Source of the DNA: Pseudorhodobacter sp. PARRP1
GTDB lineage: Bacteria; Pseudomonadota; Alphaproteobacteria; Rhodobacterales; Rhodobacteraceae
NCBI GenBank assembly: GCA_002256245.1
Contig: NKIU01000004.1
Coordinates: forward strand, 124,001 to 188,000
Direction: 5' to 3'
DNA: 64,000 nucleotides
In this document: positions 25,949-29,156 of the stretch, in pieces
Numbering within the stretch: the stretch's first letter is position 1
Layout of the letters: the number at the start of each line of letters is the position of its first letter
Translations under genes and position numbers: made by a program
The notes under the pieces: generated by a model
Told to the model about the DNA's origin: nothing
Seen by the model: only the letters and a program-made list of their open reading frames with translations
Database searches by the model: none

Positions 25949-25977
25949 TTGGCGGCGCGCATCTAAATCGCTATCAC
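25949..25977 (+). promoter_or_regulatory. Candidate promoter of the cysS-cimA operon
   Basis: TTGGCG (25949-25954), 17 bases, TATCAC (25972-25977). Transcription would begin about 25984-25985, at the A of the leader-peptide ATG, making that small ORF leaderless. This fits its lack of a Shine-Dalgarno. Confidence 0.45.
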
Positions 25978-25984
25978 GGGCGCC

Positions 25985-26026
25985 ATGAACACGATGGGCA
26001 TCATCATTTGCTGCATTACCTGCTGA
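25985..26026 (+). CDS. Leader peptide MNTMGIIICCITC upstream of cysS-cimA
   Basis: A 13-codon ORF ends in TGA 95 bases before cysS. Its codons read M-N-T-M-G-Ile-Ile-Ile-Cys-Cys-Ile-Thr-Cys: four Ile and three Cys in eight consecutive positions. The two coupled downstream genes make cysteinyl-tRNA synthetase and citramalate synthase (isoleucine synthesis). The composition is what a ribosome-mediated attenuator sensing charged tRNA-Cys and tRNA-Ile would need. There is no Shine-Dalgarno; the promoter position suggests leaderless translation. After it, CCTC repeats (26049-26052, 26057-26060) can pair with the GAGG repeats (26107-26115) that include the cysS Shine-Dalgarno. The function is inferred. 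Confidence 0.6.
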   Translation: MNTMGIIICCITC

Positions 26027-26121
26027 CGAACAGTCACGCGGGCCATCACCTCATTCCCTCAACCGGATCAAGCTGATAGACCCGCCGCAGGCAAATGCGA
26101 GCGTAAGAGGCGAGGGTTGCG
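26027..26121 (+). promoter_or_regulatory. Structured leader between the uORF and cysS
   Basis: This stretch can fold in competing ways: GCGGG (26038-26042) with CCCGC (26081-26085), and CCTC-N4-CCTC (26049-26060) with GAGG-C-GAGG (26107-26115), which would mask the cysS ribosome-binding site. No T run follows either stem, so control of translation start is more likely than termination. Confidence 0.45.
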
Positions 26122-27537
26122 ATGATCAAACTGCACAACACCAAGACGCGGGCGAAGGAAATCTTCACCCCGATTGATGACAAGAACGTGCGGATGTATG
26201 TCTGCGGCCCCACGGTTTACGATCGCGCGCATCTGGGCAACGGCCGCCCGGTGGTGGTGTTTGACGTGCTGTATCGCCTGCTGCGCCATGTTTACGGCGC
26301 CGACCACGTCACTTACGTGCGCAATTTCACCGATGTCGATGACAAGATCAACGCGACCGCTCTGGCCCGCCAGCAGGCAGGCGCTGCGGGTTCGCTGGAG
26401 GACCTGATCCGCGAGCGGACCGAGGAAACCATCCAGTGGTATCACGACGACATGGACGCCTTGGGCGCGCTGCGGCCCAACTTTGAGCCGCGCGCGACGG
26501 AATATATCGGGCCGATGGTGGCGATGATTTCCGATTTGATCGCCAAAGGCCATGCCTATGCCGTTGAAGGTCATGTGCTTTTTCGTGTACGTTCGTACAA
26601 GAGTTACGGCGCGCTGTCGGGCCGCTCGGTCGATGACATGATCGCAGGCGCGCGGGTCGAAGTGGCCCCCTTCAAAGAAGACCCGATGGATTTCGTGCTG
26701 TGGAAGCCGTCCTCGGGCGACGAGCCCGGCTGGGAAAGCCCTTGGGGCCGGGGCCGTCCGGGCTGGCATATCGAATGCTCGGCGATGAGTTATGAATTGC
26801 TGGGGCCTTCGTTTGACATCCACGGCGGCGGCTTGGATCTGCAATTCCCCCACCACGAAAACGAGATCGCCCAAAGCTGCTGCGCCCACCCCGAGGCGAG
26901 TTTCGCGCGGGTCTGGATGCACAATGAGATGCTGCAGGTTGAGGGTAAGAAGATGTCCAAGAGTTTGGGCAATTTCTTTACCGTCCGGGATTTGCTGGAT
27001 CAGGGAATTCAGGGATATATCATTCGTATGGTCTTCCTCATGACTCACTACAGTAAACCGATGGATTGGACCGAGGCGAAATTCGTGAGAGCACGAGGTG
27101 AACTTAGTAAGTGGGCCAACTGGATGGCGAATTTTTCTGAGACAGGAATTAGTCCGTCTCAAGAGTTAATCGAAGCGCTTTCTGATGACCTCAATACCCC
27201 TGATGCAATCACACATCTTCGCACGTTGTATAGTGTTGGAAAATACGAACAACTGGCTGCTGATCTAAAATTTCTGGGCATTTGGAACGGACAAAATTCA
27301 AATGAAATTTCAGGTATTTACCTTCACGACACACATACCAAGCAAGCTGTTAAAATAAAAATTGAAAAAATCTTGGATCGCCTTGCTGAAGCAAGATCGG
27401 TGAAGAAATATGCCGAAGCTGATCGTATTAAGGCTGATCTTGTTGAAGCAGGCGTTGCAGTTCAGATTAGCAAAACTGCGACTTCTTACACGTTAATGCC
27501 AAATTTTGATCTCGCTAAACTCGAGTCCCTGAAATGA
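26122..27537 (+). CDS. cysS: Cysteinyl-tRNA synthetase, with an AT-rich 3' part
   Basis: A 471-residue class I synthetase that charges tRNA-Cys. Zinc ligand Cys28 sits in [14 protein letters not shown] (the last four residues are the HIGH-like motif); the other ligands lie in HIECSAMS and PHHENE. KMSKS is at 277-281. GAGGG lies 6 bases before the ATG. From about 27000 (codon ~293) to the stop, GC falls to about 42% by hand count, against over 60% in the first part, with rare codons (AAA, ATA, TTA, AGA) and phrases such as [10 protein letters not shown]. The protein stays full length and ends in the normal [12 protein letters not shown] block. The stop overlaps the cimA start (ATGA). Confidence 0.93.
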
Positions 27538-29156
27538 ACCCCTCGCGCCTCTACCTGTTCGACACCACCCTCCGCGATGGCCAGCAAACCCAAGGTGTGC
27601 AATTCTCCACCGCCGAAAAGCGCCAGATTGCCACGGCGCTTGATGCCTTGGGGGTGGATTATATCGAGGGTGGGTGGCCGGGGGCGAATCCGACCGACTC
27701 GGAATTTTTCGCCCATGCCCCGAACACCCGCGCCACCATGACGGCGTTTGGCATGACCAAGCGCGTCGGGCGCTCGGCGGGCAATGATGATGTGCTGGCG
27801 GCGGTGCTGGATGCGGGCACGCCGGCGGTCTGTCTGGTGGGCAAGACGCATGAATTTCACGTCACCACCGCCTTGGGTGTTTCCCTAGAGGAAAACCGCG
27901 AGGCGATTGCGGCCTCGTTCCAGCATGTCGTCGCCAAAGGGCGCGAGGCTTTGTTTGACGCCGAGCATTTCTTTGACGGCTATCGCGCCAACCCAGACTA
28001 CGCGCTGTCATGTCTGCGCGCGGCCTATGATGCGGGTGCGCGCTGGATCGTTTTGTGCGACACAAACGGCGGCACTTTGCCATCGGAAGTGGGGCGCGTG
28101 GTGGCCGAGGTGATCGCCGCAGGCATCCCCGGTGATCGGTTGGGCATCCATTGCCACGATGATACCGGCAATGCGGTGGCCAATTCCTTGGCGGCCGTAG
28201 AGGCGGGCGCGCGGCAGATTCAAGGCACGCTGAACGGGCTGGGAGAGCGTTGCGGCAACGCAAATCTGGTCACCCTGATCCCGACTTTGCTGCTGAAGGA
28301 ACCTTTCGCAAGCCAGTTGCAAACCGGGGTCTCAGCCGAGGCTTTGGCCGGACTTGTACGTTTGTCCCGCAGCTTGGATGACATTCTGAACCGTGTGCCA
28401 AACCGTGCGGCCCCCTATGTCGGCGCCAGCGCCTTTGCGCACAAAGCTGGGCTACATGCCAGCGCAATCCTCAAGAATCCAAGCACTTACGAGCATATCG
28501 CGCCTGAAATCATCGGCAATGAGCGTATCATCCCTATGTCAAACCAGGCCGGGCAATCGAACCTGCGCACGCGCCTGATCTCGGCCGGGATCGAGGTGGC
28601 GGCGGGTGATCCGCGGCTGGGGCGCATCCTTGAAATCATCAAGGAACGCGAGGATCAGGGCTATGCCTACGACGGCGCGCAGGCCAGTTTCGAGCTGGTC
28701 GCCCGCAAGGAATTGGGCCTGCTGCCGACCTTCTTCGAGGTCAAGCGTTACCGGGTGACGGTGGAGCGGCGGAAGAACAAATATGACCGCATGGTCAGTT
28801 TGTCCGAAGCGGTGGTGGTGGTTAAAATCGGCGAGCACAAGATGCTATCGGTCAGCGAAAGCATGGATGAAACCGGCACCGATCGCGGCCCGGTCAATGC
28901 GCTTTCAAAGGCGCTGGCCAAGGATCTGGGGCCGTATCAGCGGGTGATTGACGATCTGCGGCTGGTCGATTTCAAGGTGCGGATCACCCAAGGCGGCACC
29001 GAGGCGGTGACTCGGGTGATTATTGACAGTGAAGACAGTCAGGGGCGGCGCTGGTCTACAGTGGGGGTCTCGGCCAACATCGTCGATGCCTCGTTCGAGG
29101 CGCTGCTGGACGCGATCAACTGGAAGCTGATCCGTGACATCGGGGTGCCGGTATGA
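27534..29156 (+). CDS. cimA: (R)-citramalate synthase
   Basis: A 540-residue HMGL-like enzyme that joins pyruvate and acetyl-CoA into citramalate, the entry to threonine-independent isoleucine synthesis. The catalytic TIM barrel has [27 protein letters not shown] and [12 protein letters not shown]. The C-terminal LeuA-type regulatory domain (about 400-540) probably binds isoleucine. The length and GQQTQG motif separate it from LeuA. It is coupled to cysS by ATGA and to the next gene by ATGA. Confidence 0.9.

Follow-up and report, generated by a model that had tools for sequence, protein, structure and literature searches.

The window, the whole 64,000 nucleotide stretch of Pseudorhodobacter sp. 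PARRP1 DNA that was analysed, includes two coupled genes: cysS, specifying a cysteine--tRNA ligase (26122..27537; TIGR00435, 429 bits with a cut-off of 340) and cimA, specifying a citramalate synthase of the isoleucine precursor route (27534..29156; TIGR00977, 568 bits with a cut-off of 450). Both, together with the leader features described below, are located on the forward (+) strand. The cimA start lies on the cysS end with a 4-base overlap and, since both products score above the curated family cut-offs, the coupled pair proposed in the initial annotation was borne out. A GAGGG Shine-Dalgarno sequence for cysS can be read at 26112..26116. A further gene resembling those for squalene/phytoene synthases (PF00494; 29153-29914) overlaps the end of cimA, also by 4 bases, and the operon may therefore comprise three genes.

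Upstream of cysS is a small open reading frame (uORF; 25985..26026) which would encode the leader peptide MNTMGIIICCITC. It has an ATG at 25985, 13 sense codons and a TGA at 26024-26026, and the cysS ATG (26122) is found 95 bases 3′ to it. Four of its last eight codons are Ile and three are Cys. The candidate regulatory codons, Ile6 Ile7 Ile8 Cys9 Cys10 Ile11 (26000..26017), include tandem Cys codons (9-10, TGC TGC) and lie between two RNA segments, regions 0 and 1, considered below. The initial annotation had been exact in coordinates, frame and peptide, and our recount also gave seven Ile or Cys codons in the last eight. To judge the rarity of this composition we took from both strands of the window the 327 ORFs that begin with ATG and have 8-19 codons, the leader ORF and a nested ATG counted in: only these two reach 7/8 and the best other ORF has 4/8. 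Short window ORFs contain 4.7% Ile, 4.5% Cys and 5.4% Thr, and with a pooled Ile and Cys frequency of 9.2% a simple binomial gives a probability of ~4e-7 for at least seven of eight. No Rfam covariance model matched the window leader up to an E value of 5, and none reached the gathering threshold in five related loci.

The uORF is preceded by a candidate promoter, P1, composed of a −35 element TTGGCG (25949..25954) and a −10 element TATCAC (25972..25977). When 111 non-redundant leaders are aligned by the first base of the uORF start codon, the strongest upstream positions are YTGG at −36..−33, with a T at −35 in 85%, YTA at −13..−11 and a C at −1 (90%). The window carries the corresponding signals, namely TTGG (25949-25952), TATCAC (25972-25977) and a C at −1, with the −10 element displaced upstream by one base relative to its most frequent position in the family. 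Words resembling a Shine-Dalgarno sequence precede 10 of the 111 uORFs versus 83 of the 111 cysS starts. Because the promoter is in fixed register with the ATG, the uORF is probably leaderless, with transcription starting at the A of its ATG. A promoter so placed had been suggested from the window alone; it is plausible in that it fits the family-wide register, while a strict sigma-70 consensus scan found no promoter site at the window leader. A putative second promoter, P2 (26054..26082), lies between the uORF and cysS. It includes TTCCCT (26054-26059) and an extended −10 sequence, TGATAGACC (26074-26082), and peaks occur at matching positions in 90 leaders: TT at −27/−26 and TGCTAAG at −7..−1 from a downstream CCCGC box. 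The motif TGnTA is present in 71/138 leaders and in 8/12 loci devoid of the uORF, as raw counts. To judge from this signature, P2 may be a basal cysS promoter which bypasses the attenuator.

Among the matches listed, the nearest named relatives are Rhodobacterales and, in the best 80 named Rhodobacterales loci of these matches, cysS is followed by cimA in all 80. A second set of 90 loci from the same family was selected according to genus and to the presence or absence of cimA; cimA is present in the stretch examined for 74 of these and not for 16. Together with the window, the two sets, between which species may overlap, provide 155 cimA-adjacent loci. Leaders were called without regard to residue content, as an ATG ORF of 8-19 codons with a GCGGG-like box after its stop codon. 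This procedure retrieved a leader at 139 of the 155 loci, one of them (L056) a miscall. In the L056 leader, an apparent extra hairpin separates the uORF stop from the GCGGG box, and this insert misled the caller. The 16 uncalled loci comprise one cut by a contig end (L014), three with Ile/Cys ORFs seen by eye that fail the anchor and were tallied as uncalled (L121, L141 and L149), and 12 in which no Ile/Cys leader ORF was found (L004, L011, L012, L027, L031, L032, L052, L094, L120, L160, L163 and L171). L027 is from Rhodobacter capsulatus. These 12 loci, which include that of genome G242, indicate that the leader can be lost while cimA is retained.

The composition of the leaders is strongly biased. 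In 128 distinct peptides (1616 residues), Ile is the commonest residue (28.2%), followed by Cys (21.0%) and Thr (14.6%). A leader peptide matched to two amino acids, as proposed in the initial annotation, is supported by the comparison. Over 130 distinct uORF sequences, Ile, Val and Leu occur in the proportions 467:14:49, which argues that Ile itself, rather than hydrophobicity in general, is what these positions share, and the ratio of Ile to Cys is 467:347. Cys is present at codons −5 and −4 in 104 and 90 of the 130 leaders respectively. Both ATT and ATC are used at codons −6 (34/34) and −7 (30/33), whereas ATT accounts for 121 of the 124 Ile codons at −3, implying that part of the Ile signal is at the nucleotide level. 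Thr was considered as a third signal and set aside because it is also frequent in the cysS ORFs of family f8 (see below) and often lies beside the stop codon, within region 1.

Natural variation in gene content provides a further view of the codons. Of 292 genomes of the family, 276 have a cimA match (E up to 1e-100). In genus g7, judged by eye, the leader is present in 8/9 genomes with cimA and in 0/11 of those lacking it. The cimA label requires four changes on the CysS tree in this genus, three of them forced by well-supported branches with the bootstrap not settled, so that the eleven cimA-lacking genomes represent fewer than eleven events. The g7 genome which has cimA but no leader, G242, is placed inside the leaderless clade of this tree, and some g7 leaders include a single Ile (MNARAADCCCITV, MDARATLFCCRIV). 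At the 16 cimA-lacking loci the caller picked five ORFs. Those at three g7 loci, L087, L088 and L096 (the last with two Cys and one Ile), were judged by eye to fall inside the preceding gene or at its end; that at L091 differs from MDWICCLCRA, which fails the anchor; and L111 is at a contig end, its genome, G191, being left out as uninformative. Genus g79 (three genomes, one event) carries MDWICCLCRA, MDWICCLCRA and MEWICCPC upstream of cysS; cimA is absent from two of these genomes and, in the third, from the stretch examined behind cysS. In the two genomes of genus g46, both cimA and the leader are absent.

Outside the family we sampled 28 cimA genes, with cysS directly upstream in 16 and not in the stretch examined in 12, among which L184 is truncated by the end of its contig. 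A clear Ile and Cys leader was found at one of the 16 cysS-cimA loci, in G330, a member of a third order (MSNAHTIFICPIICR); MTCATLICG at another, L237, is doubtful as such a leader. A search for relatives of G330 in its family and order, as a test of this second dual leader, retrieved none among the available genomes. No obvious Ile leader was seen at the 11 loci outside family f8 among the 12 without an upstream cysS.

Family f8, the sole family seen in its order (that of G298), belongs to an order other than that of the window's family, and its cimA is separate from cysS. A short ORF precedes cimA in 30 of 33 loci (e.g. MNPAHSIIQGLIISG, MNIINAIIIKGLIISG, MALAWIIIKGIIIRG), and, among the 333 residues of the 23 distinct sequences, 31.5% are Ile and none is Cys. 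Pairing tests of the kind described below gave no covariation for this leader. As far as the literature was searched, it is undescribed. A long GC-rich complementarity, CCGCCGCCG with CGGTGGCGG, was observed downstream of these ORFs (L176, L202-L230, L265 and L268). The solo cysS of f8 is preceded by an ORF with at least two Cys codons in 14 of 16 genomes (e.g. MTCRCCRKNTTESLA), and the 13 distinct peptides include 18.5% Cys and 2.3% Ile; these ORFs were picked for Cys and only their low Ile content is therefore unbiased. About 100-190 bases before cysS, several ORFs at L248-L263 keep the pair TGT CGA (Cys and a rare Arg codon; e.g. ATGACCTGTCGA), which may point to a distinct family of Cys leaders or to a motif at the nucleotide level. 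Together, the distribution suggests that the codons follow the genes, Cys codons accompanying cysS and Ile codons accompanying cimA, and that they occur apart where the genes are apart.

The leader RNA has a potential for several conserved pairings. An outer stem is formed by the first uORF codons and the bases behind the GCGGG box; in the window, its left arm is region 0, GATGG (25993..25997), and its right arm region 2b, CCATC (26043..26047). It encloses an inner hairpin in which region 1, CCTGCTGAC (26019..26027), the end of the uORF with its stop codon, pairs with region 2a, GTCACGCGGG (26033..26042). The minimum free energy fold of 25985-26060 (−21.7 kcal/mol, z −2.48) contains the region 0 pairing, and the inner hairpin has an energy of −12.9 kcal/mol. 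Single-sequence folds of the leaders of four relatives gave z values of −2.75, −2.09, −1.35 and −1.62, and the G330 leader has no notable fold (z 0.22). RNAalifold on a 57-row MAFFT alignment returned three pairs and no compensatory change, and register-free pairing tests were used in its place. In these tests the partners are exchanged among species; the shuffles treat the leaders as independent, ignoring kinship. For the outer stem (108 leaders, three of the 111 being dropped), which covaries strongly, the score of own pairs was 14.62 compared to 11.92 with partners swapped (sd 0.24, maximum 12.61), and at least six pairs can form in 72/108 leaders compared to a swapped mean of 39.5 (maximum 58). 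Variants of the two arms include GAACGGC/GCCGTTC, GAAGAGC/GCTCTTT and ATGACGA/TCGTCAT. The inner hairpin, in which the uORF end pairs with GTCNCGCGGG, covaries weakly (14.09 versus 13.64 shuffled, sd 0.115).

The GCGGG of region 2a (26038-26042) has an alternative partner, the CCCGC of region 3 (26081..26085). This 2:3 pairing scored 20.64 compared to 18.61 (sd 0.19; 111 leaders). In the 94 leaders which remain when the 17 without a box are dropped, the flanking pair is complementary in 73, with a shuffle mean of 41.9 and a maximum of 58. The other three neighbours are close to the shuffle level (61 versus 60.3; 36 versus 27.8, maximum 39; 37 versus 30.0, maximum 39), and control positions obtained by sliding gave 28-52, one offset also exceeding its own shuffles (52, maximum 48). 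The flanking pair is a C.C mismatch in the window, where the 2:3 pairing is short. The outer stem and inner hairpin are compatible and enclose the Ile and Cys codons, while the 2:3 pairing excludes the inner hairpin: GCGGG can pair either with region 1, for which covariation is weak, or with region 3.

Behind the hairpin is a pyrimidine tract (26048..26061) with 5 T in the 16 positions scored, versus a family mean of 7.2. T-rich tracts with up to 11 T of 16 are found at this position in some relatives; a terminator scan gave no match at the window leader, where the U-poor tract would constitute at best a weak intrinsic terminator. The initial annotation had instead proposed a switch in which CCTC-N4-CCTC pairs with the GAGG repeats at the cysS Shine-Dalgarno sequence. 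The repeats are indeed present in the window (26049-26060 and 26107-26115). A CCTC-N3-5-CCTC motif occurs in 4/138 leaders (the window, L003, L005 and L022), and its combination with the GAGG repeat is confined to the window among these 138; the switch was therefore rejected as a general mechanism. The conserved pairings are instead those between the uORF start and the segment behind the hairpin, the uORF end and GTCNCGCGGG, and GCGGG and CCCGC.

From the comparison of peptides, codon types, promoter register, pairings and gene content, the leader is best read as a ribosome-stalling attenuator responding to two amino acids, a reading to which we assign a probability of about 0.7. In this model, the transcript would begin with the first base of the uORF start codon, as the promoter register suggests, and the peptide would be translated from a leaderless RNA. 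When charged Cys-tRNA and Ile-tRNA are both ample, the ribosome would reach the stop codon and depart, permitting formation of the outer stem and inner hairpin, pairings supported by comparison. The resulting terminator-like fold in front of the pyrimidine or U tract would leave little cysS-cimA message. This terminator step is the weak point of the mechanism in the window. If either charged tRNA is scarce, the ribosome would pause on the IIICCI codons between the arms, separating these and making GCGGG available to the CCCGC further downstream, and we infer that this would result in readthrough into cysS-cimA. Given the size of its footprint, a ribosome halted at codons 6-11 would mask one of regions 0 and 1 or the two together, so that pausing at Ile and at Cys codons could have the same effect. 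The Cys codons would serve cysS and the Ile codons cimA, and the promoter downstream of the hairpin would probably provide basal cysS expression. We also consider it fairly probable that a single stalled-ribosome switch implements OR logic here on two unrelated amino acids, one sensed on behalf of a tRNA synthetase and the other on behalf of a biosynthetic enzyme in the same operon, with modular codons: Cys and Ile with cysS-cimA, Ile only with cimA alone and Cys-rich with cysS alone, in at least two alphaproteobacterial orders.

Other explanations concern either what the codons sense or how expression is controlled. The Cys codons alone might monitor Cys-tRNA, with cimA as a passenger and Ile incidental or structural. 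This corresponds to the published proposal for the element (145 examples in the available text of PMC8632094) and is consistent with the frequent Cys at codons −5/−4, with a nucleotide constraint at codon −3, nearly always ATT, and with the Cys leader retained by g79 without cimA. We nevertheless judge it unlikely: Ile outnumbers Cys, is not exchanged for Val or Leu, shifts in position and uses both codons, and the solo cimA of f8 carries an Ile-only leader. A further view is that the uORF is a by-product of RNA structure or of the promoter, and that neither the peptide nor its codons serve to sense starvation. Its start and end are constrained by RNA pairing and the second promoter-like signature overlaps region 3; the Ile and Cys codons, however, lie between the paired arms, keep their identity with synonymous change at −6 and −7, are in frame with the ATG and stop, and follow gene content, all of which renders this view very improbable.

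Concerning the mode of control, Rho might load behind the hairpin, where the RNA is rich in C and poor in G, once the ribosome has left and be blocked by a stalled ribosome or by the 2:3 pairing. In the window this segment is indeed C-rich, with few U, and Rho has been suggested for Cys leaders of mycobacteria that have no terminator hairpin (in the portion of PMC1262725 available), but the T-rich tracts of some relatives fit intrinsic termination. We regard a Rho mechanism as unlikely. Control might also be translational, the conserved folds or the window CCTC repeats gating access to the cysS Shine-Dalgarno sequence in place of termination. The window has CCTC-N4-CCTC opposite a GAGG repeat and a weak U tract, and 26037-26121 in isolation folds region 2 and CCTC onto the Shine-Dalgarno region. 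This fold is unremarkable (z −0.92), though, the CCTC/GAGG combination is particular to the window among the 138 leaders, and a ribosome stalled on region 1 would favour a fold that hides the Shine-Dalgarno sequence, a response of the wrong sign; we regard this alternative as quite improbable. Rho-dependent or translational control is possible in the window's own clade.

Should the two-amino-acid attenuator be correct, it would illustrate how a single attenuator comes to integrate unrelated metabolic signals when a pair of unrelated genes is co-transcribed, and how the codons of leader peptides evolve as a record of operon gene content. The split leaders would then constitute ready-made natural swaps for probing the role of each codon block. 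An excess of cysteine interferes with the synthesis of isoleucine in enterobacteria, at the threonine deaminase step. Citramalate synthase bypasses threonine deaminase, cysteine-sensitive in those bacteria, and this may provide a physiological reason for the association.

The leader closely resembles uORFC-8-2 (Brewer et al. 2021, PMC8632094), for which the available text describes 145 examples, found only upstream of cysS and in Rhodobacterales, with an AUG uORF that carries a tandem pair of Cys codons, and with two stems followed by a U run, and proposes a Cys attenuator. The window leader shares the position upstream of cysS in a member of the Rhodobacterales, the AUG uORF and the tandem Cys codons; it also has two stems and a 3′ pyrimidine/U tract in which the U run is weak, and it is almost certainly a member of this group. 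Its tandem Cys codons are codons 9 and 10 compared to 'usually at positions 14 and 15' in the published description. Isoleucine, cimA and citramalate have no occurrence in the main text of PMC8632094, and a search of the open-licence literature found neither the Ile/cimA half of the leader in print nor a relevant paper linking cimA with cysS or a leader peptide with citramalate. Hence, of the novelty originally claimed for the locus, the Cys attenuator had already been proposed, while the Ile/cimA half is absent from that text: the element is not new but a second, Ile/cimA signal appears to be undescribed. Relative to the available description, our analysis adds the Ile codons, the linkage to cimA, the probable leaderless start, the outer stem identified by covariation and the split leaders. 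What seems new is that Ile is the commonest leader residue and that, on sequence comparison, the codons follow the genes.

Leaderless poly-Cys short ORFs of mycobacteria are reported to attenuate downstream genes according to cysteine supply (Canestrari et al. 2020, as cited in a review). They share with the present leader a small ORF (here probably leaderless, to judge from promoter register) and contiguous Cys codons, but involve one amino acid, other genes and another phylum; the window leader has both Ile and Cys codons and, in its family, Ile is commonest. Moreover, the family has conserved stems, unlike the mycobacterial Cys leaders, for which the available part of PMC1262725 describes no conserved hairpins able to act as terminators.

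As in attenuators of the trp and his type, the window leader codons are cognate to the operon products (CysS and CimA), although the region 1:2 covariation is weak (14.09 versus 13.64), the 2:3 pairing is short and the terminator scan gave no match. Several amino acids may be monitored by one leader: the enterobacterial thr attenuator carries Thr and Ile codons and that of ilvGMEDA carries Ile, Val and Leu codons. The present leader is similar in that one peptide includes codons for several amino acids and would control alternative folds by stalling. Both operons are named in the available part of PMC1183508. The amino acids of the thr and ilvGMEDA leaders share a pathway, whereas the two codon sets of the window leader fit an aminoacyl-tRNA synthetase and an unrelated biosynthetic enzyme.
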